Below are positions 4,354-53,690 of a stretch of 64,000 nt of DNA, piece by piece. Under the pieces are notes generated by a model, which did not search any database, was not told where the DNA came from, and worked only from the letters and a program-made list of their open reading frames with translations. The stretch covers positions 1,115,001 through 1,179,000 of the forward strand of contig NZ_CP098361.1 in NCBI RefSeq assembly GCF_030388245.1, given 5' to 3'. Within the stretch, counting starts at the first letter, position 1. The number at the start of each line of letters is the position of its first letter. Both the position numbers and the translations under genes were made by a program. This DNA comes from Paracoccus sp. TOH (GTDB lineage: Bacteria > Pseudomonadota > Alphaproteobacteria > Rhodobacterales > Rhodobacteraceae).

Positions 4354-5193
4354 GTGCAAGACGATATCGTGGGGATCTGCCGCTTTTCCTTCCTGGGGAA
4401 ATGCGACTGGGCCGAGACCGCGGGGCAGGGCGGCGACAGCCCCGGCCTGATGGCGCGGCGCCGGGCCATGCTCTACGCGCCGGGACGGCTGGCACGCCGC
4501 TTCGCCGCCTTCGAGACGCTCTGCCTGCCCTCGATCCGGGCGCAGACCGACCCGGATTTCCGCTTCTGGATCCTGACCTCGCCCGAGATGCCGGGCGAAT
4601 GGCTGGAGCGGCTGCGCGGGCTTTGCGCGGGGGTGCCGCAGATCCGGCTGATCGTCTCGGACAAGCGCGAGACGGTGAACGCGCTGCGCGAGCCGCTGCG
4701 CGAGGCGGCCGAGGCGGCAGGCCGGCCGGTGATCCAGTTCCGCGTCGATGACGACGACGCCTTCAGCCGCCACCACGTCGCCCGCATCCGCAGCCACGCA
4801 AGGCGCTTCGCCGACCTGCCGGCTTTCGCCATCAGCTATCCGCAGGGCCTGGTCATGGGCAGCTACGAGGGCGACCCGATCAGCTACTGGCGCGCGCATC
4901 AGCCCTTTCTCGGCGCCGGCGTGGCGGTGCGGATGCGGGGCGCGGGCCGTTGCATCTATGCCTACAACCATTTCCAGCTGCCCAAGCATTTCCCGGCCTT
5001 CACCGATATCGCCGGCCTGGGCTATCTGCAGACCCGCTGGGACGAGGGCGATTCCGTCGCCACCATCGTCGCGAAATTCCCGAAATGGTTCCAGCGGCTG
5101 GACCCGGCCGCCTTCCGGCAGGCGTTGGCCGAGGATTTCCCCTTCCTGCAGGATGTCGATCTGGGCTTTGTGGAACGCAAAGGGGCGGCCTGA
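4354..5193 (+). CDS. Putative rhamnosyltransferase-like glycosyltransferase
   Basis: Probable cytoplasmic glycosyltransferase of 279 residues resembling the putative rhamnosyl transferase family (PF11316 type). Features are an N-terminal strand (IVGICRFSFLG), a basic-aromatic region, CLPSIRAQTDPDFRFWILTS typical of GT-A sugar transferases, and an acidic cluster DDDD at residues 132-135 that can serve as the metal-binding DxD motif. It starts at GTG with AAGGGA upstream. It stands alone between mreB and leuA, divergent from mreB and convergent with leuA, so neighbours give no hint of the acceptor. Donor sugar is unknown. Confidence 0.75.
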   Translation: MQDDIVGICRFSFLGKCDWAETAGQGGDSPGLMARRRAMLYAPGRLARRFAAFETLCLPSIRAQTDPDFRFWILTSPEMPGEWLERLRGLCAGVPQIRLIVSDKRETVNALREPLREAAEAAGRPVIQFRVDDDDAFSRHHVARIRSHARRFADLPAFAISYPQGLVMGSYEGDPISYWRAHQPFLGAGVAVRMRGAGRCIYAYNHFQLPKHFPAFTDIAGLGYLQTRWDEGDSVATIVAKFPKWFQRLDPAAFRQALAEDFPFLQDVDLGFVERKGAA

Positions 5194-5229
5194 CAGCCGC
5201 CCCGTCCGCCTGCGCCGATCCGCAGCGGA

Positions 5230-6792
5230 TCAGTGCGAATACATGCTGACCTGCTTGGCATCGGCGCCTTCGCCGACCATCTCGCGGCGCACCTTCAGCC
5301 GGTTCAGCGCCCCGACATAGGCCTTGACGCTGGCCAGGATGGTGTCGGTATCCGAGGCCTGTCCGGTGGCGATGCGGCCTTCCTCCTCCATGCGCACGCT
5401 GACGGTGGCCTGGGCATCGGTGCCCTCGGTCACGGCATGGACCTGATACAGTTGCAGATGCGCCTTGTGCGGCCAGATCGCCTTGACGGCGTTGAAACAG
5501 GCGTCGACCGGGCCGTCGCCGGTGGCATGGACGGATTTCTCCTCGCCGCCGACGCTCAGCGTCAGGTCGGCCGACTGGCCGTCCGTGCCGCAGACCACCC
5601 GCAGATGCTTGACCTGCAGGTAGTCGTCCTCGGTATTGCTGGCGGCATCCTGCATCAGCGCCACCAGGTCGTCGTCGTAAATCTCCTTCTTGCGGTCGGC
5701 CAGCGCCTTGAACCGCACGAAGATGTCCTTCAGCTGGTTGTCGCCCAGCTCATAGCCCAGGTCGCGCAGCTTCGCGCGCAGCGCGGCGCGGCCCGAATGC
5801 TTGCCCATGGCGATATTGGCCTCGTTCAGGCCGATATCGGCGGGGCGCATGATCTCGAAGGTCTCGACATTCTTCAGCACCCCGTCCTGATGGATGCCGG
5901 ATTCGTGCAGGAAGGCGTTCTTGCCGACGATGGCCTTGTTGAACTGCACCGGAAAGCCCGAGACCTGGCTGACCCGGCGCGAGATGCCCATGATCTTCGT
6001 CGTGTCGATTCCGGTGTCATAGGGCATGATGTCGTGGCGCACCTTCAGCGCCATCACCACCTCTTCCAGCGCGGTATTGCCGGCCCGCTCGCCCAGCCCG
6101 TTGATGGTGCATTCGATCTGGCGCGCGCCGGCCTCGACGGCGGCCAGGGCGTTGGCGGTCGCCATGCCCAGGTCGTTGTGGCAATGCGTGGCGAAGACCG
6201 CCCCGTCGGCGCCCGGCACCCGCTCCAGCAGCATGCGGATCAGCGCGGCGGATTCGCGCGGCGCGGTATAGCCGACGGTGTCGGGGATGTTGATGGTGGT
6301 GGCGCCCGCCTTGATGGCGATCTCGACCACCCGGCACAGGTAGTCGTGCTCGGTCCGGGTGGCGTCCATCGGCGACCATTGCACGTCGTCGCACAGGTTG
6401 CGGGCATGGGTCACGGTCTGCTCGATCCGCTCGGCCATCTGGTCCATGTCCAGGTTCGGAATGGCGCGATGCAGCGGCGAGGTGCCGATGAAGGTGTGGA
6501 TGCGCGGGCGCTTGGCGTGTTTCACCGCCTCCCAGCAGCGGTCGATATCGGGGAACTGGGCGCGGGCCAGGCCGCAGATCACGGCGTTCTGCGCCTGTTT
6601 CGCGATCTCGCTCACGGCGGCGAAATCGCCCTCCGAGGCGATGGGAAAGCCCGCCTCGATGATGTCCACGCCCATCTCGTCCAGCATCTGGGCGATTTCC
6701 AGCTTCTCGGTATGGGTCATGGTGGCGCCGGGCGATTGCTCGCCGTCGCGCAGGGTGGTGTCGAAGATCAATACGCGGTTTTTGTCGGTCAT
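5230..6792 (-). CDS. leuA: 2-isopropylmalate synthase
   Basis: First committed step of leucine synthesis: condenses 2-oxoisovalerate with acetyl-CoA. The 520 residues have the catalytic TIM barrel with DTTLRDGEQSPGAT near the N-terminus, the metal-binding HCHNDLG motif, GLGERAGN, and a C-terminal regulatory domain that normally binds leucine. Length fits the bacterial enzyme. The gene stands alone on the minus strand and is preceded by a leucine-rich leader ORF and a hairpin (6849-6972), indicating attenuation control in addition to any feedback inhibition. Confidence 0.97.
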   Translation of the reverse strand: MTDKNRVLIFDTTLRDGEQSPGATMTHTEKLEIAQMLDEMGVDIIEAGFPIASEGDFAAVSEIAKQAQNAVICGLARAQFPDIDRCWEAVKHAKRPRIHTFIGTSPLHRAIPNLDMDQMAERIEQTVTHARNLCDDVQWSPMDATRTEHDYLCRVVEIAIKAGATTINIPDTVGYTAPRESAALIRMLLERVPGADGAVFATHCHNDLGMATANALAAVEAGARQIECTINGLGERAGNTALEEVVMALKVRHDIMPYDTGIDTTKIMGISRRVSQVSGFPVQFNKAIVGKNAFLHESGIHQDGVLKNVETFEIMRPADIGLNEANIAMGKHSGRAALRAKLRDLGYELGDNQLKDIFVRFKALADRKKEIYDDDLVALMQDAASNTEDDYLQVKHLRVVCGTDGQSADLTLSVGGEEKSVHATGDGPVDACFNAVKAIWPHKAHLQLYQVHAVTEGTDAQATVSVRMEEEGRIATGQASDTDTILASVKAYVGALNRLKVRREMVGEGADAKQVSMYSH

Positions 6793-47349: not shown

Positions 47350-48612
47350 TTAGTCTTTCCCCAGCCGCGACACGTCCCGGAGCTGCCCGCCGGTCGCCAG
47401 CAATTCCCGGGGAACGGGATGGCTGATGAAATGGATCGGGCTTGCCGTTGGGCCATAGGCGCCGCAGGCATGAATGGCGAGCAGGTCGCCCACCTCCAGC
47501 CGGGGCAGGGCGACGCCGCCGCCGAGCTTGTCGATCGAGGTGCAGAGCGGGCCGGAGATGTCCTGCTTTTGCTCGGGCCGGGCGCCGTCCTCATCGCCGC
47601 CGACCCGGTGCAGGACGTAATTGCGCCGCAGCACCATGCCGAAATTGCCCGAGGCCGCCAGGTTCGCGTTCAGCCCGCCGTCGCAGATCGCGATGCGTGT
47701 GCCGCGCGATTGTTTGACCGAGACGACGCGGGTCACGAACCAGCCCGCCGGCCCGACCAGGTAGCGGCCCAGCTCCAGCTCCAGCCGGGTCGCGGGGAAG
47801 CGTCCGGCGAAGGCGTCGAGCTCCGGGCCGATCCCGGCGGCGATGGCGGCAAGGTCCAGTTCGCTGTCGCCGGGATGGTAGGGAATGCCGAGGCCCGCGC
47901 CGAAGACCAGCTTCTGCGGGGTAAGGGCCAGCGCCTCGCAGATCTCGGAGAAGACCTGCATGAAGATCCGCCAGTTCTCGCAGATCGCCTCGGGGCGCAG
48001 GCATTGCGTGCCGGAATAGATGTGCAGCCCGATGATGCGCAGATGGGGCAGGGCGGCGATGCGCGGCAGGATCTCGGCCGCATCCTCGACATCGACGCCG
48101 AACGGGCTGGGGCGTCCGGCCATCTGGTCGCCGAAACCCTTGGGCACCCGCGCCGGCGCGATGCGCACCAGGACCGGCTGCACCAGGCCCAGTTCGCCGG
48201 CGATGGCGTCGGCCAGTTCGGCCTCGCGCAGGCTTTCCAGCACCAGCTCGCCCAGGCCTCCCGCGATGGCGGGGCGCAGCTCGGTCGCCTGCTTGGCGGG
48301 GCCGGTGAAGCTGATGCGCCCGGCCTCCCAGCCGGCCTGCATGGCCAGCCCGAATTCGCCGCCCGAGGAAATGTCGAGATGGTCCAGCCGGTCGCGCATC
48401 CAGGACAGCAGCGCCGGGTTGGGGTTGCTTTTCACCGCGAAGCTGATGGCGAACCAGCGGCCCAGATGGGCGCGCAGATGCGCCAGCCGCGCCTCGACCA
48501 GGTCGGTGGAATAGACATAGGCCGGGGTGCCGAAGCGCCCGGCGGCTTCGGCCAGCAGCCGGTCCGGCGCCGCGCCCTGGGTCGCGGCCGGGTCAGCCAA
48601 GGCTGTCGACAT
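47350..48612 (-). CDS. PLP-dependent decarboxylase (LysA/ODC-like, type III fold)
   Basis: 420-residue fold-type III decarboxylase related to diaminopimelate and ornithine decarboxylases and to carrier-protein-dependent forms such as BtrK. Lys61 in FAVKSNPNPALL is the PLP lysine; SSGGEFGLA, HIYSGTQCL, ICDGGLNANL and the C-terminal HACGAYGP active-site loop follow. It is not the housekeeping lysA, because it overlaps an acyl carrier protein gene by 20 bases and sits with an AMP-forming ligase. The similar decarboxylase of exosortase A-associated clusters is another relative. Likely substrate: an aminoacyl group on the ACP (inference). Confidence 0.85.
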   Translation of the reverse strand: MSTALADPAATQGAAPDRLLAEAAGRFGTPAYVYSTDLVEARLAHLRAHLGRWFAISFAVKSNPNPALLSWMRDRLDHLDISSGGEFGLAMQAGWEAGRISFTGPAKQATELRPAIAGGLGELVLESLREAELADAIAGELGLVQPVLVRIAPARVPKGFGDQMAGRPSPFGVDVEDAAEILPRIAALPHLRIIGLHIYSGTQCLRPEAICENWRIFMQVFSEICEALALTPQKLVFGAGLGIPYHPGDSELDLAAIAAGIGPELDAFAGRFPATRLELELGRYLVGPAGWFVTRVVSVKQSRGTRIAICDGGLNANLAASGNFGMVLRRNYVLHRVGGDEDGARPEQKQDISGPLCTSIDKLGGGVALPRLEVGDLLAIHACGAYGPTASPIHFISHPVPRELLATGGQLRDVSRLGKD

Positions 48613-48829
48613 AGGCCAGGATCGCGTCGATGGTGTCGAAATTGTCCAGCGTCACATCGCCCGGCTGCACATGCACCCCCGCCTTGCTTTCGACGAAGCC
48701 GATCAGCCCGACCATCGAGACGGAATCCAGCATTCCGGTCGAGAACAGCTCGGTATCGCCGTCGATGGGCTGGTCGATGTTCAGCTCGGACTGGACGTAG
48801 GAAATCAGCGCTTGCTTGCTCAGGCTCAT
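48593..48829 (-). CDS. Acyl carrier protein of the glycan-modification operon
   Basis: 78-residue phosphopantetheine carrier. The attachment site is Ser36 in GMLDSVSMVGL; helices I-IV are recognisable and the protein is acidic. It is not the fatty-acid AcpP, whose DSLD motif differs. It lies 4 bases after the ligase gene and overlaps the decarboxylase gene by 20 bases, so the three are translated together. It probably carries an amino acid loaded by the ligase. Confidence 0.88.
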   Translation of the reverse strand: MSLSKQALISYVQSELNIDQPIDGDTELFSTGMLDSVSMVGLIGFVESKAGVHVQPGDVTLDNFDTIDAILAYVDSLG

Positions 48830-48833
48830 GGTC

Positions 48834-50423
48834 TCATGCCTTCTGTCGTTCCTGCAGGGGGGCAGCCGCCTTGGCGGCCGAAATGATGGCGGGGCGATCC
48901 AGCTTGCCGCTGGCGGTGCGCGGCATGGCGCCGCCCCAAGGGTGGAATCGCTGCGGACGCATGTAATGCGGCATGGCGCGGGCGCAATGCGCGGCCAGCG
49001 CGGCCTCGGTCCCCTGCGGCAGATAGGTCACGGCGACGTGAACCGCCTGGCCCAGATCGGCATCCTCGACCCCCCAGGCCACCACATCGGCCACCAGCCC
49101 GCTTTGCGAGACCGCATCCTCGACCTCGGTCGGCGACAGGCGGAAGCCCAGCGTCTTGATCATCTCGTCCATGCGGCTGACGAACCACAGGTCGCCGTCC
49201 TCGTCCACGCGCACCAGGTCGCCCGACCAGACCACCGGCTGATCGCCCAGGACATCGGCAAGCTCGGGACAGGGGCGGATCTTCTGGGCCGTCACCTCGG
49301 GTTTTTCCCAATAGCCCATGCTGACCAGCGGCCCGGCATGCACCAGTTCGCCCTGCTCGCCGGGACCGGCGACGCCCTCGCCATGCTTGATGGCAAAGAC
49401 CTGCGCATTGGGAATCTGCCGGCCGATCGAGCCCATCTTGGCCGCGAATTTGGCCGGAGGCAGATAGGTCGAGCGGAAGGCCTCGGTCAGCCCATACATC
49501 AGGTAGATGTCCACGCCCGGAAACACCTGCGGCAGCGCCTGCAGGATGTTGGGGGGGATCTTGCCGCCGGTATTGGTGATGCGCTTCAGCGCCGGCAACG
49601 CCACCGGATTTTCCTGCAGCAGCCGCACGATCTGGTTCCACAAGGGCGGCACGCCGGCAAGGCCGGTCACCGCCTCGGCCCGCGCCATGCGGATGATCTC
49701 GGCCGGCATGGTCAGCGGTTGGTGGACCACGGTGCCGCCGACCAGCAGCATGGTGGTCAGCTGGTTCAGCCCGGCATCAAAGCTGTAGGGCAGGACCGAG
49801 AGCAGCCGGTCGCCTTCCTCCAGCCCCAGATATTGCGCGACCGAGATCGCGCCCACGCGGATGTTGCGATGGCTGAGCATCACCCCCTTGGGCGCGCCGG
49901 TCGAGCCCGAGGTGTAGATGATCATCGCCAACCCTTTCGGGTCGCATTCGTCGGGCGCGGAGCCGCTGTCGGCCGGCAGGGCCGCCCACGGGTCCGCGCC
50001 CTGGACAAGGCCCTCGGCCTTGCCCTGAACCAGGTAAGCCGTGCCCTCGGGCAAGGCATGTTCGTCCGCAAGCCCGTTCAGCGCGTTGCGGGGCAGGATC
50101 ACCGCCCGCGCCCGGCAGTCGCGGGCGACATAGGCCAGCTGCGCGGTGGTCCAGCGGATGTTCACGTTGACGACCACCGCGCCCATCTTCCAGGCGCCCA
50201 GCATCGCCGCGACCTCTTCGATGCCCTTGCGCAGGTGCACGATCACCCGATCGCCGGGGCGGATGCCGCGCCGGGTCAGCCAGTCGGCGACGCGCCCGGC
50301 CTCGGCCGCAAGTTCGGCATAGGTCGCCGCGCGGTCCCGGTCCACCGCCGCCACCTTCCCGGCGCGCTCGGGAAGATTGTCAGCCAGCAGCCGCCACATG
50401 CAGCGGTCGAAATCGTCACTCAT
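48834..50423 (-). CDS. AMP-forming acyl/aminoacyl ligase (ANL superfamily)
   Basis: 529-residue adenylating enzyme. Core motifs: YTSGSTGAPKGVMLSH (P-loop), MYGLTEAF, the SGDLV aspartate, and the C-terminal hinge and lysine GKLDRP. I start at MSDDFDRCMW; an upstream in-frame start would add 19 basic residues inside the preceding gene. It resembles the ligase paired with PLP decarboxylases in exosortase A clusters and amino-acid-activating enzymes that load stand-alone carrier proteins. Overlaps the hexapeptide-transferase gene by 8 bases. Confidence 0.88.
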   Translation of the reverse strand: MSDDFDRCMWRLLADNLPERAGKVAAVDRDRAATYAELAAEAGRVADWLTRRGIRPGDRVIVHLRKGIEEVAAMLGAWKMGAVVVNVNIRWTTAQLAYVARDCRARAVILPRNALNGLADEHALPEGTAYLVQGKAEGLVQGADPWAALPADSGSAPDECDPKGLAMIIYTSGSTGAPKGVMLSHRNIRVGAISVAQYLGLEEGDRLLSVLPYSFDAGLNQLTTMLLVGGTVVHQPLTMPAEIIRMARAEAVTGLAGVPPLWNQIVRLLQENPVALPALKRITNTGGKIPPNILQALPQVFPGVDIYLMYGLTEAFRSTYLPPAKFAAKMGSIGRQIPNAQVFAIKHGEGVAGPGEQGELVHAGPLVSMGYWEKPEVTAQKIRPCPELADVLGDQPVVWSGDLVRVDEDGDLWFVSRMDEMIKTLGFRLSPTEVEDAVSQSGLVADVVAWGVEDADLGQAVHVAVTYLPQGTEAALAAHCARAMPHYMRPQRFHPWGGAMPRTASGKLDRPAIISAAKAAAPLQERQKA

Positions 50424-51060
50424 GATCAGGGGCCCTTCCTTCGGCCGCGCTTGCCGGCGGGGCCTTTTTCTTGGCGGCAAAGATCGGCAGGCTGGGATAG
50501 ATCCTGGCCGGAGAGCCGATCACCACCGAATCCGAGGGCACGTTGGTCGTTACAGCGGTATTGGCGCCGATCCGCACCCGGTCGCCGATGCGGATGGCGC
50601 CGAGCACCGTCGCGTTCACGCCGATGAACACGTCATTGCCGATCACCGGTGCGCCGGGACGCATGTTCGTGCCGATGGTGACGTTGTGCATGACGCCGCA
50701 ACGGTCGCCGATGACCACGTCGGGATGGATCGAGAGCGAACCCTCGGCGTGGATGATGTGGAAATCCGCGCCGATGCTGACCTGCGGCGGGATCCAGACC
50801 TTGGTCACGTTGAGGATGAAGAGCTTCATCAGCGCATAGGGCTTGCTCGCCAGCCAGCGCAGGGCCGGGTTCTGCAGCCCGATGGCCCAATGCCCGTATC
50901 GGTAGATCGCCAGCGAGACGAAGGCCGGGTCCGTCAGCGAACTGCCATGTCTCCTGTAGTCTTCCCTAAGGATCCTGAACATCACCACGCACTTGCTAAT
51001 CAATTTGGCAGGAAAATCTGGCTCCCGGACCCATATTCCAATGTCTTGCGAGAAACTCAA
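50416..51060 (-). CDS. Left-handed beta-helix acyltransferase (serine acetyltransferase-like)
   Basis: 214 residues: a helical N-terminal 85 residues like serine O-acetyltransferases, then hexapeptide repeats from about residue 90 (IHPDVVIGDRCGVMHNVTIGTN, VIGNDVFIGVNATVLGAIRIGDRVRIGANTAVTTNVP). The catalytic-type His is in GADFHIIHAEG. Its 5' part and upstream sequence (about 50940-51080) are clearly lower in GC than the rest, hinting at a recombination joint. In this operon it may acylate a sugar or a carrier-bound intermediate. Confidence 0.85.
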   Translation of the reverse strand: MSFSQDIGIWVREPDFPAKLISKCVVMFRILREDYRRHGSSLTDPAFVSLAIYRYGHWAIGLQNPALRWLASKPYALMKLFILNVTKVWIPPQVSIGADFHIIHAEGSLSIHPDVVIGDRCGVMHNVTIGTNMRPGAPVIGNDVFIGVNATVLGAIRIGDRVRIGANTAVTTNVPSDSVVIGSPARIYPSLPIFAAKKKAPPASAAEGRAPDHE

Positions 51061-51081
51061 CCTGACTGTTAGGACGGGTTT

Positions 51082-52134
51082 TCAGGGTTCGGCGGCCGCG
51101 ATCAGGTCAAGCGTGCGGCGGATCTGGTCCCATTCCACCCGATAGCCGCCGGCGGTGCCCGAGCCCACGACCATGGCATAGCGCTGCTGCCAGCAATCCG
51201 TCAGCAGCTTCAGCGAGGTGGTCACCCGGTCCGCCGGCTGCAGGGTCAGCAGCGTGCCGCCGGCCGGCATGGCGATCACGCCATGGGCAAGCTGGCTGCC
51301 CTCGACCCCCACCACCAGCCGGGCCGCGCCCGCCGCCTCGGCCATCTGGTCGGCATCGTGGCGGTCGACATAAAGTGTGCGGAAGCCGTATTCGACCTCC
51401 AGCCGCTCGGCGATCTCGGCCTCGTTCACCAGGATGCGGGCGTCGCCGCTGGCGCCGCGGAAGATGAAGACGCCGGGCAGCGGCTTCAGCGCCCGGTCCT
51501 TGAGGATGCGGGCGCGATTCTCCTGCGCGCGGGCGCGACGGTGGCTGTTGTTGTGCAGGTCGTCGAACAGGATCAGCTCGTCGAAATGCACCTCGCCGAT
51601 GCGGCGCGGCGCCATGCCCAGCAAGGTCTCGTAGCGCGCGATATGCCCGCCGCGCGCCGGGGCCGAGGTGACGGGCGCCCCGGCCGCCTCGGCCAGCCGA
51701 TAGGCCAGGCAGTCGTTCAGCAGCCAGTTGCCGAACCAGCGATTGCCGATCCAGCTTTCGTAAAGCGCGCCCGACAGGCTGTCGCGCGGCCGCGGATAGG
51801 TCGGCCCGGAATGCCGGCGCTGGCGCAGGTGGCGTTCGGCGCCGCGCGCATGCAGCACGCCGTCGACGAAATCCACGTCGCGGAAGCGATAGCCCATGGT
51901 CGGCGGCGTGCGTTCGGCCGGATCGCCCTGCATCTGCGCCAGGATGTCGGGCAGGCCGCCGAACTCGGTCCGGGCGATATGCTCGACCTGATCCGGCAAC
52001 CAGATCCCCGGCGCGATCTCGACCTCATCGGCCGGGCAGATCTCCCAGCGGTCGACGGCCGTGTCGAAGAACTCCGCCCGGCCCAGACCGAGAAGGCGAC
52101 GCAGGCGGTTATGGATCGGTCTGAGGGAATGCAT
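51082..52134 (-). CDS. GT61-like (DUF563) glycosyltransferase
   Basis: 350-residue protein resembling glycosyltransferase family 61: NRWFGNWLLNDCLAYRLAEAAG, a middle HFDELILFDDLHNN, IFIFRGASGDAR-type strand (positions about 225-240) and the C-terminal LVVGVEGSQLAHGVIAMPAGGTLLTLQP, where GAQL/H-type residues bind the nucleotide sugar in the family. Probably cytoplasmic, building a surface polysaccharide. Lies 61 bases after the esterase gene and 21 bases before the acyltransferase gene. Confidence 0.82.
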   Translation of the reverse strand: MHSLRPIHNRLRRLLGLGRAEFFDTAVDRWEICPADEVEIAPGIWLPDQVEHIARTEFGGLPDILAQMQGDPAERTPPTMGYRFRDVDFVDGVLHARGAERHLRQRRHSGPTYPRPRDSLSGALYESWIGNRWFGNWLLNDCLAYRLAEAAGAPVTSAPARGGHIARYETLLGMAPRRIGEVHFDELILFDDLHNNSHRRARAQENRARILKDRALKPLPGVFIFRGASGDARILVNEAEIAERLEVEYGFRTLYVDRHDADQMAEAAGAARLVVGVEGSQLAHGVIAMPAGGTLLTLQPADRVTTSLKLLTDCWQQRYAMVVGSGTAGGYRVEWDQIRRTLDLIAAAEP

Positions 52135-52195
52135 GGCGTCTCGGCTGGCGGGATCGGGACAAGTTTAGGGGGCGAGGGGAGCGGCGCAAGCGGGA

Positions 52196-53350
52196 TCAGC
52201 CGCTGCCGGGCGGATCCTCCGCATTCAGCACCTCGATCAGCGTTTCGGCGATCATGGCGTGGTCCGCGGCCGAGGGGTGCCACAGGCAGGCATTGCGCCG
52301 TGGTTCGCCCAGGATTACCAGCCGGTTGGCGATGCCCCTGGCGGTCAGCAGGTCCGAGGCGCTGCGATGCGCCTCGACCAGCTCGGGGCCGTATTCGCCG
52401 AAGGCCAGAAGCACCATCAGCGCGCCGGGGTTCTCCTGCGCGCGGGCGGTGACGAAATCGGCCAGCGCCGGCCCGAAATCGCGGCGCAGCTGGCTCTTGT
52501 CGGTCCAGCGCTCGCCCGGCGCCAGCTCGGAGCCGAAGACATTCGAGCCAAGCCCGATGACGATGATATCGGCCTGGCGCTGCGGCAGGGCGGTCGCCGC
52601 CGCATCCCCCGGCAGCGCCAGCGGGTAAAGCCGGTCCATGGTGTGGTCGGGGTCGGCACCGCCATAATTGCGCAGCAGGCCGATGCCGGAACGGGCGACC
52701 AGCCGATAATCCGCGCCGAGCGCCGTTGCCACCTGAGGGCCGAAACTGCGGCTGGTATCGGTGGCGGCATAGATCTCCTCGTCGCCGCAATCGCGGTGCT
52801 CGGCGGTGTTGGCAAAGCCGACGGTGTCGGAATCGCCGATGAACTCGATCAGCCGCCCCGGCTCCGGCGGCGGCAGGGCCTTGGCCGCGGCATCAAGAAG
52901 AAAGCCGCCGAACAGCGCCGGCCCTTTCGATTCGCTGATCTTCTCGGCGCGAATCGCATGCGGACCGGGCGTCAGCCCGTCGATGCGCAGATCCTGCCGG
53001 CCGGGGCGAGAGATCTCGACCGGCTTGCCGTCCAGCACCACCCGCCAGCGATTGACCGCATCGTCGAAGCGCAGGGTGATGCCCGTCCCCTCGAACCGGG
53101 CCGCGGCATGGAATCCCGGCCATTCGTGGCGATAGCCCTGGGCGGGCCCGGCTGCGGCGCGGCCCGTCACCTTGGCGGACAGGGCGACCAGATCGGGCTG
53201 CGGCGGGATCAGCCGGACCCGAAAGTCCGCGTCCTTGGCCAGGCCGATCTGCGGCACCGGGATCATTGGCCGCGCCGGTCCCGGCCAGGCGAAGAAGCCG
53301 ACCATCGCGACCAGCGCGATGCCGAAAACCGTGATGCCGATCGCTTTCAT
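52196..53350 (-). CDS. SGNH/GDSL esterase, CE2-like, membrane anchored
   Basis: 384 residues: an N-terminal membrane helix or signal (AIGITVFGIALVAMVGFFAW), a beta-sandwich (YRHEWPGFHAAARFEGTGITLRFDD) like carbohydrate esterase family 2, then an SGNH domain with nucleophile block FIGDSDTVGF, GLGSNVFG and the C-terminal WHPSAADH Asp-His pair. Probably periplasmic polysaccharide deacylase. Start is uncertain: ATGs at 53365 and 53368 would add five or six residues. First gene of the glycan-modification operon. Confidence 0.82.
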   Translation of the reverse strand: MKAIGITVFGIALVAMVGFFAWPGPARPMIPVPQIGLAKDADFRVRLIPPQPDLVALSAKVTGRAAAGPAQGYRHEWPGFHAAARFEGTGITLRFDDAVNRWRVVLDGKPVEISRPGRQDLRIDGLTPGPHAIRAEKISESKGPALFGGFLLDAAAKALPPPEPGRLIEFIGDSDTVGFANTAEHRDCGDEEIYAATDTSRSFGPQVATALGADYRLVARSGIGLLRNYGGADPDHTMDRLYPLALPGDAAATALPQRQADIIVIGLGSNVFGSELAPGERWTDKSQLRRDFGPALADFVTARAQENPGALMVLLAFGEYGPELVEAHRSASDLLTARGIANRLVILGEPRRNACLWHPSAADHAMIAETLIEVLNAEDPPGSG

Positions 53351-53431
53351 CCGTCCTGCACTCATCATACCCAACACACCGGCGATTCCGGCGATCCTGA
53401 CCGAACCCGGCCGGCAAATCCAGCCGCGTCG

Positions 53432-53690
53432 TCAGCCGCGGAATCCGGCGCGAATCCCGATCGCGTCGCGGATGTCATAATGATGGTCGCCGATGAAGAA
53501 ACCGTGAAGGTCGATCTCCTCGGCATGGGTCGTCGGCCCGTGCAGGCTGTGATCCATCATTCCCAGCACCGGGTTGTTCGTAAAATCGCCGCGACGATGG
53601 GCCGCGTCTCGACTTCGACCAGATAGGAGAGCCGTCCCGTCCCGTCACCCCGGTGATCGGCGCCTTCATCGTCACCACAACACTGTCACT
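53432..53690 (-). pseudogene. Frameshifted 3' remnant of an unidentified gene
   Basis: Two adjacent minus-strand frames together read as one protein: GTGRLSYLVEVETRPIVAAI (upstream frame) continues as TNNPVLGMMDHSLHG and then IDLHGFFIGDHHYDIRDAIG to a stop at 53432. The join falls at the A4 tract 53582-53585 (T4 on the coding strand); one extra T would restore the frame. The upstream part has a stop and no start, so the gene is also 5'-truncated. I do not recognise the family. It lies 82 bases before the SGNH esterase gene and may have belonged to that operon. Confidence 0.45.

Follow-up and report, generated by a model that had tools for sequence, protein, structure and literature searches.

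We analyzed a six-gene block in a 64,000-nucleotide stretch of Paracoccus sp. TOH (NZ_CP098361.1, positions 1,115,001 to 1,179,000), hereafter the window. The genes share the minus strand and run nearly contiguously from 53350 to 47350, encoding, in this order, a CE2-type esterase, a GT61 glycosyltransferase, a hexapeptide acyltransferase (HEX), an AMP-forming ligase (LIG), a carrier protein (ACP), and a pyridoxal phosphate (PLP)-dependent decarboxylase (DEC). Our reading, to which we assign a probability of roughly 0.5, is that the ligase, carrier, and decarboxylase would make a beta-alanyl thioester and that HEX would pass the beta-alanyl group to a surface glycan. The features are as follows.

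52196..53350, minus strand: CE2-type SGNH esterase, 384 aa from ATG, alternative GTG start at 53377, Pfam CE2_N
51082..52134, minus strand: GT61 glycosyltransferase, 350 aa, Pfam PF04577
50416..50982, minus strand: HEX, hexapeptide acyltransferase of the serine-acetyltransferase-like subfamily, Pfam Hexapep, likely ATG at 50982
48834..50423, minus strand: LIG, VinN-like AMP-forming amino-acid ligase, 529 aa, residues D216, T285, and R317
48593..48829, minus strand: ACP, stand-alone carrier, 78 aa, Ser36, PP-binding
47350..48612, minus strand: DEC, BtrK-like fold type III PLP decarboxylase, 420 aa, Lys61
53435..53593, minus strand: colD remnant (decayed tail) between proS and the esterase gene, 70% identity to ColD residues 337-389

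The coordinates bear out an earlier sequence-only reading of this locus as six co-directional, closely spaced or overlapping genes. HEX and LIG overlap by 8 nt, LIG and ACP are 4 nt apart, and ACP and DEC overlap by 20 nt; Pfam and NCBIfam agree with the assigned names. The HEX reading frame opens at 51060, and the alignment of distant relatives begins at about residue 27. For comparison, 53 loci were gathered by a DEC-based scan, which favors close relatives; three of the contigs are shorter than 10 kb.

The ligase, carrier, and decarboxylase

LIG matched the Pfam AMP-binding domain (268 bits) and the AMP-binding C-terminal domain. The best PDB match of its core was VinN (111.7 bits), in an alignment of 216 columns with zero gaps. 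VinN loads 3-methylaspartate via the beta-carboxylate, with pocket roles described for Asp230, Ser299, and Arg331 (PMC7756342). VinN-type enzymes have a beta13-beta14 loop one residue shorter than that of alpha-amino-acid domains (PMC11253843), and as the LIG alignment is free of gaps, LIG has the same short loop. The three VinN pocket residues correspond to D216, T285, and R317 of LIG. Equivalents of D216 and R317 were present in all 52 block ligases and all 24 other ligases aligned, with Ser at the T285 position in 21 of the 52, while the arginine occurred in 0 of the 10 other alignable AMP-binding domains of the window genome. These residues support a LIG that would activate an amino acid at its distal carboxylate, and the best reading is a VinN-type ligase predicted to activate the beta-carboxylate of L-Asp. 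A fatty-acid ligase appears unlikely, since the pocket Asp would bind an amino group and the pocket Arg a carboxyl group.

By far the best NCBIfam match to LIG was TIGR03098 (507.5; curated cut-off of 592.35 not reached), and to DEC it was TIGR03099 (365.9; curated cut-off of 478.45 not reached). LIG and DEC are about 40% identical to high-scoring members of these families. The VinN-like Asp and Arg also occur in ligases that are exosortase A-associated or lie in polysaccharide clusters (L097-L101, L103-L105, L129, and L132), and the same substrate class is therefore predicted for them. Of the two ligase groups named for comparison in the sequence-only reading, the exosortase A-associated enzymes do share the D and R; the nearest model is VinN, not BtrJ.

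DEC matched both Pfam Orn/DAP/Arg decarboxylase domains. Its best PDB match was BtrK (217 bits, residues 24-418), compared to 129 bits for the best diaminopimelate decarboxylase (DapDC). It is a fold type III protein with a PLP lysine, nearer BtrK than DapDC. This lysine, Lys61, was found in 54 of 54 aligned rows, as was the D35-S36 pair of ACP, and both residues named earlier (Lys61 and carrier Ser36) were confirmed. A quick tree placed DEC inside a clade of block decarboxylases, separate from LysA; frames L115 and L117 were trimmed to their last 420 residues, and their placement carries no meaning. A housekeeping LysA or ornithine decarboxylase was ruled out, as DEC does not group with LysA and two further members of the superfamily, one of them LysA-like, are encoded elsewhere in the window genome. 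DEC is best read as predicted to act on a carrier-bound amino acid, in the manner of BtrK. ACP itself matched Pfam PP-binding (27.5 bits; cut-off 20.8) and did not reach the cut-offs of two DltC models (31 bits against 68, and 27 against 52).

Because a BtrK-like decarboxylase adjoins a carrier and a ligase with distal-carboxylate residues, a decarboxylated aminoacyl thioester is the best-supported reading of the predicted product, as had been proposed from the sequence. LIG would adenylate the side-chain carboxylate of L-Asp and load the phosphopantetheine of ACP, giving beta-aspartyl-S-ACP, from which DEC would strip the free alpha-carboxyl to leave beta-alanyl-S-ACP. Alternatively, L-Glu could be loaded through its gamma-carboxylate and converted by DEC to 4-aminobutyryl-S-ACP, as in butirosin biosynthesis. 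BtrK acts on glutamyl-BtrI (entry name of 7ru7), and Ala217 of LIG, replacing VinN Phe231, leaves room. However, the gap-free VinN alignment retains the aspartate-placing residues, and AfcQ, a VinN-type ligase with the matching Arg, activates L-Asp, which AfcP decarboxylates on the carrier (PMC12186527). We consider the glutamate variant rather unlikely.

The acyltransferase and conservation of the block

HEX (Pfam Hexapep, 50.9 bits) has serine acetyltransferases (SAT; CysE/EpsC) as its nearest PDB relatives (73 bits), but it missed the serine O-acetyltransferase cut-offs (EpsC, 94.5 against 150; cysE, 78.4 against 210.65). The SAT histidine is aligned in HEX and was present in all 46 rows counted; 46 of 53 rows entered this count, seven frames being too short from start choice. 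In contrast, Ile replaces the SAT Asp preceding the histidine, and a three-residue gap falls where SAT has the Arg-His stretch that binds serine. Based on this alignment, we take HEX not to be a serine acetyltransferase. Its predicted structure (pLDDT 58) was too poor to use. GT61 matched PF04577 (52.4 bits; cut-off 27), and the esterase matched CE2_N (65.3 bits; cut-off 27.9) without reaching the cut-off of NCBIfam AxeC2 (66.8; cut-off 500).

A GT61-HEX-LIG-ACP-DEC unit recurs across alphaproteobacteria, with loci in Paracoccus, Neorhizobium/Rhizobium, Hyphomicrobium, Novosphingobium, Sphingobium, Ruegeria, Defluviimonas, and metagenome-assembled genomes (MAGs). ACP was present in all 53 loci, HEX and LIG in 52 each, GT61 in 48, and CE2 in 25 (24 of the 25 Paracoccus loci and L043). 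The recurrence of the trio with HEX and GT61 agrees with the sequence-only reading. Of the six-gene set, five genes form the conserved core; the esterase lies outside it, and the trimming of a glycan by this enzyme, as once suggested, would be lineage-specific at best. Upstream of GT61 in the Neorhizobium locus L053, a 403-residue protein (4947-6158, plus strand) without a Pfam match has GHSLTD and DEVHL stretches that appear SGNH-like by eye, and may take the place of the CE2 esterase.

Among 125 genomes of the window's genus, HEX was found in 39 and DEC in 40; both occurred in 38, always on the same contig. The exceptions were G516, with HEX only, and G506 and G521, with a lower-scoring DEC only. 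One genome of this genus has its HEX match in two abutting pieces, resembling a frame shift (G533:C1:3336551-3337083). HEX is otherwise rare. A set of 120 genomes from the family yielded 3 with it, two belonging to the window's genus, and it was found in 1 of 385 genomes of the class, where at most 8 candidates were scored per genome and misses are possible. Of 299 Pseudomonadota genomes sampled, 51 have a DEC relative (E <= 1e-85 to TIGR03099); the surroundings of 28 of these 51 relatives contained a LIG relative in 20 cases and the HEX-GT61 block in 2. A 6.9 kb Ramlibacter MAG contig (L028), perhaps misbinned, carries alphaproteobacterial-type HEX, LIG, ACP, and DEC.

These distributions bear on whether HEX could instead be an ordinary acetyl-CoA O-acetyltransferase whose acetyl groups CE2 removes, with some other enzyme transferring the beta-alanyl group or with this group being incorporated into a chain. 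The PDB and NCBIfam relatives of HEX are acetyltransferases, the CE2 models are deacetylases, and AfcQ assembles chains of beta-Ala on its carrier (PMC12186527). However, HEX tracks the trio, both across the loci (52 of 53) and in the genus, where 38 of 39 HEX genomes have a matching DEC, whereas CE2 is present in 25 of 53 loci. This alternative appears improbable.

The glycan setting

The window operon is flanked by proS and an Mrp-type antiporter gene (names taken from relatives). As a result, its designation as a surface-glycan operon, made in the sequence-only reading, stands on its own genes and its relatives and finds no backing in the window flanks. Thirty-two of the 53 loci have a polysaccharide or nucleotide-sugar gene in the vicinity of the block (L042 via a weak DegT match only). 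Twenty have a polysaccharide chain-length gene (14 Neorhizobium/Rhizobium-type, four Novosphingobium, one Sphingobium, and one Paracoccus). L053 also has a Wza-type exporter, a tyrosine-kinase-like protein, GT2 genes, and an undecaprenyl-phosphate sugar transferase. In 11 Paracoccus loci, a gmd-fcl-colD set lies directly upstream of the block, preceding the esterase gene. Its ColD is clear (PDB 2gms, 503 bits; SHHIxTMEGG stretch) and its second gene is Fcl-like, and a GDP-colitose-type sugar is therefore likely at these loci. A perosamine-type aminotransferase was rejected for the DegT/DnrJ-called gene upstream in P. ferrooxidans; because this gene is the same ColD, the amino-sugar idea was dropped.

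The window's colD tail comprises 53 residues after a frame break, as judged by eye, and nothing else in the genome matches colD. Among relatives that have all three genes, P. binzhouensis (L008) is the closest. Decay of the operon following colD loss has little support, as every one of the six reading frames is open and comparison with L008 gives dN/dS values of 0.08-0.38. Against L009 and L056, the latter being P. denitrificans DSM 413 with the same gene set, the five other genes gave 0.14-0.30 and the short ACP 0.72 and 0.45. The sole Poly_export match of the window genome lies about 106 kb from the block. The exosortase family PF09721 had no match in the window genome and was found in 14 of 29 genomes searched.

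Related genes also occur outside the five-gene block type. On S. meliloti pSymB, a ligase, decarboxylase, and carrier lie in a glycosyltransferase cluster; Aureimonas has a ligase-decarboxylase pair with a carrier nearby; and Sphingomonas has a pair in an XrtA-annotated cluster. Just before the ligase are a 295-residue protein in S. meliloti (L129, 13964-14851, plus strand) and a 289-residue protein in Aureimonas (L132, 8957-9826, plus strand), neither with a Pfam or NCBIfam match at 0.01. Plasmid pAMI5 of P. aminophilus carries a further GT61 gene (L131, 11270-12322, minus strand) that faces the six-gene block, with iron-siderophore uptake genes ahead of it.

A different destination for the acyl group would be a small secreted metabolite of the siderophore or lipopeptide type, acylated by HEX in place of a glycan. 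Each of the VinN, Afc, and Bol trios belongs to a natural-product pathway, the P. aminophilus block adjoins siderophore uptake genes, and Neorhizobium loci have matches to a phosphopantetheinyl transferase and adenylation domains at a distance of about 6-7 kb. Against this, 48 of the 53 loci carry GT61, 20 carry polysaccharide chain-length genes, and 11 carry the gmd-fcl-colD set, and exosortase-type relatives are located in polysaccharide clusters. We regard a secreted metabolite as quite unlikely.

Returning to the glycan as acceptor, HEX would move the beta-alanyl group onto a hydroxyl or an amino group carried by a sugar within a surface polysaccharide. GT61 would help to build this polysaccharide, and the CE2-type esterase may edit it in Paracoccus. 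Sequence, structure model, and conservation support a ligase pocket of the Asp type, the relatedness of DEC to BtrK, and the linkage to HEX and GT61. The choice of Asp over Glu, transfer by HEX, the acceptor, and any CE2 role are inferred; the loading and decarboxylation steps draw on pocket and kinship, and the later steps on gene linkage.

Several observations weigh against this proposal. In the ligase pocket, the bulky VinN Phe231 opposite the loop and Lys330 are Ala217 and Phe316 in LIG (among the 52 block ligases, 24 have Tyr at position 217; a single distant relative has Phe), and structural ranking puts VinN within 1 Z of several aryl-CoA ligases, a tie. The closest characterized relatives of HEX use acetyl-CoA. 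None of the polysaccharide or nucleotide-sugar genes looked for was found in 21 of 53 loci, the window strain has lost the gmd-fcl-colD set with the colD tail remaining, and iron-siderophore uptake genes adjoin the block in P. aminophilus. Finally, the ligase-carrier-decarboxylase trios studied thus far all serve natural products.

Comparison with known systems

Carrier-based amino-acid decarboxylation is known from natural-product pathways, and BtrJ is a ligase of another type than VinN. As a model, the BtrJ/BtrI/BtrK system of butirosin biosynthesis, invoked in the sequence-only reading, holds for the decarboxylase: BtrK acts on a carrier-bound amino acid and is the best PDB match to DEC. 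It does not hold for the ligase, which is nearest VinN, and probably not for the substrate, which is glutamate in butirosin, the product predicted here being beta-alanyl. Carrier-bound Asp chemistry is already known from the vicenistatin (VinN/VinL/VinO), AFC-BC11 (AfcQ/AfcK/AfcP), and bolagladin (BolO/BolC/BolN) pathways. These likewise pair a stand-alone ligase and carrier with a PLP decarboxylase, have the same pocket Asp and Arg, and convert an Asp-type substrate to a beta-aminoacyl thioester. They feed polyketides or peptides, whereas the window block has GT61 and HEX and no PKS or KAS gene. A Burkholderia locus tried as a possible afc cluster (L130) has acyl-CoA dehydrogenase- and KAS III-like neighbors.

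The "exosortase A system-associated" pair TIGR03098/TIGR03099 shares the pocket D and R; in contrast, the window pair falls under both cut-offs, its genome is without an exosortase match, and HEX and GT61 accompany the window type. A term search of the main text of Haft 2006 (PMC1569441) gave no decarboxylase, ligase, or acyl carrier. Searching an open-access library, which misses most subscription papers, we found no report of this chemistry for a glycan. If our proposal is true, carrier-based amino-acid decarboxylation also charges a bacterial glycan, and the five-gene unit marks where to look. The proposal gives a concrete predicted substrate, L-Asp, which would end as beta-alanyl, to an enzyme pair that is linked to polysaccharides and has no functional name, and the same pocket in exosortase A-associated ligases would mean beta-alanyl groups for polysaccharides there too.

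DltA/DltC D-alanylation of teichoic acid places an aminoacyl group on a surface polymer, as the window block is predicted to do, and Vibrio cholerae O1 has carrier and ligase genes; to our knowledge, neither DltA/DltC nor the V. cholerae O1 tetronate system includes a decarboxylase. Tetronate acylation of perosamine in V. cholerae O1 likewise puts a short acyl group on a surface polymer (PMC3441752). More tentatively, the window block may be a Gram-negative counterpart of teichoic-acid D-alanylation, in which a VinN/BtrK-type trio and a dedicated HEX would produce a positively charged polysaccharide coat.

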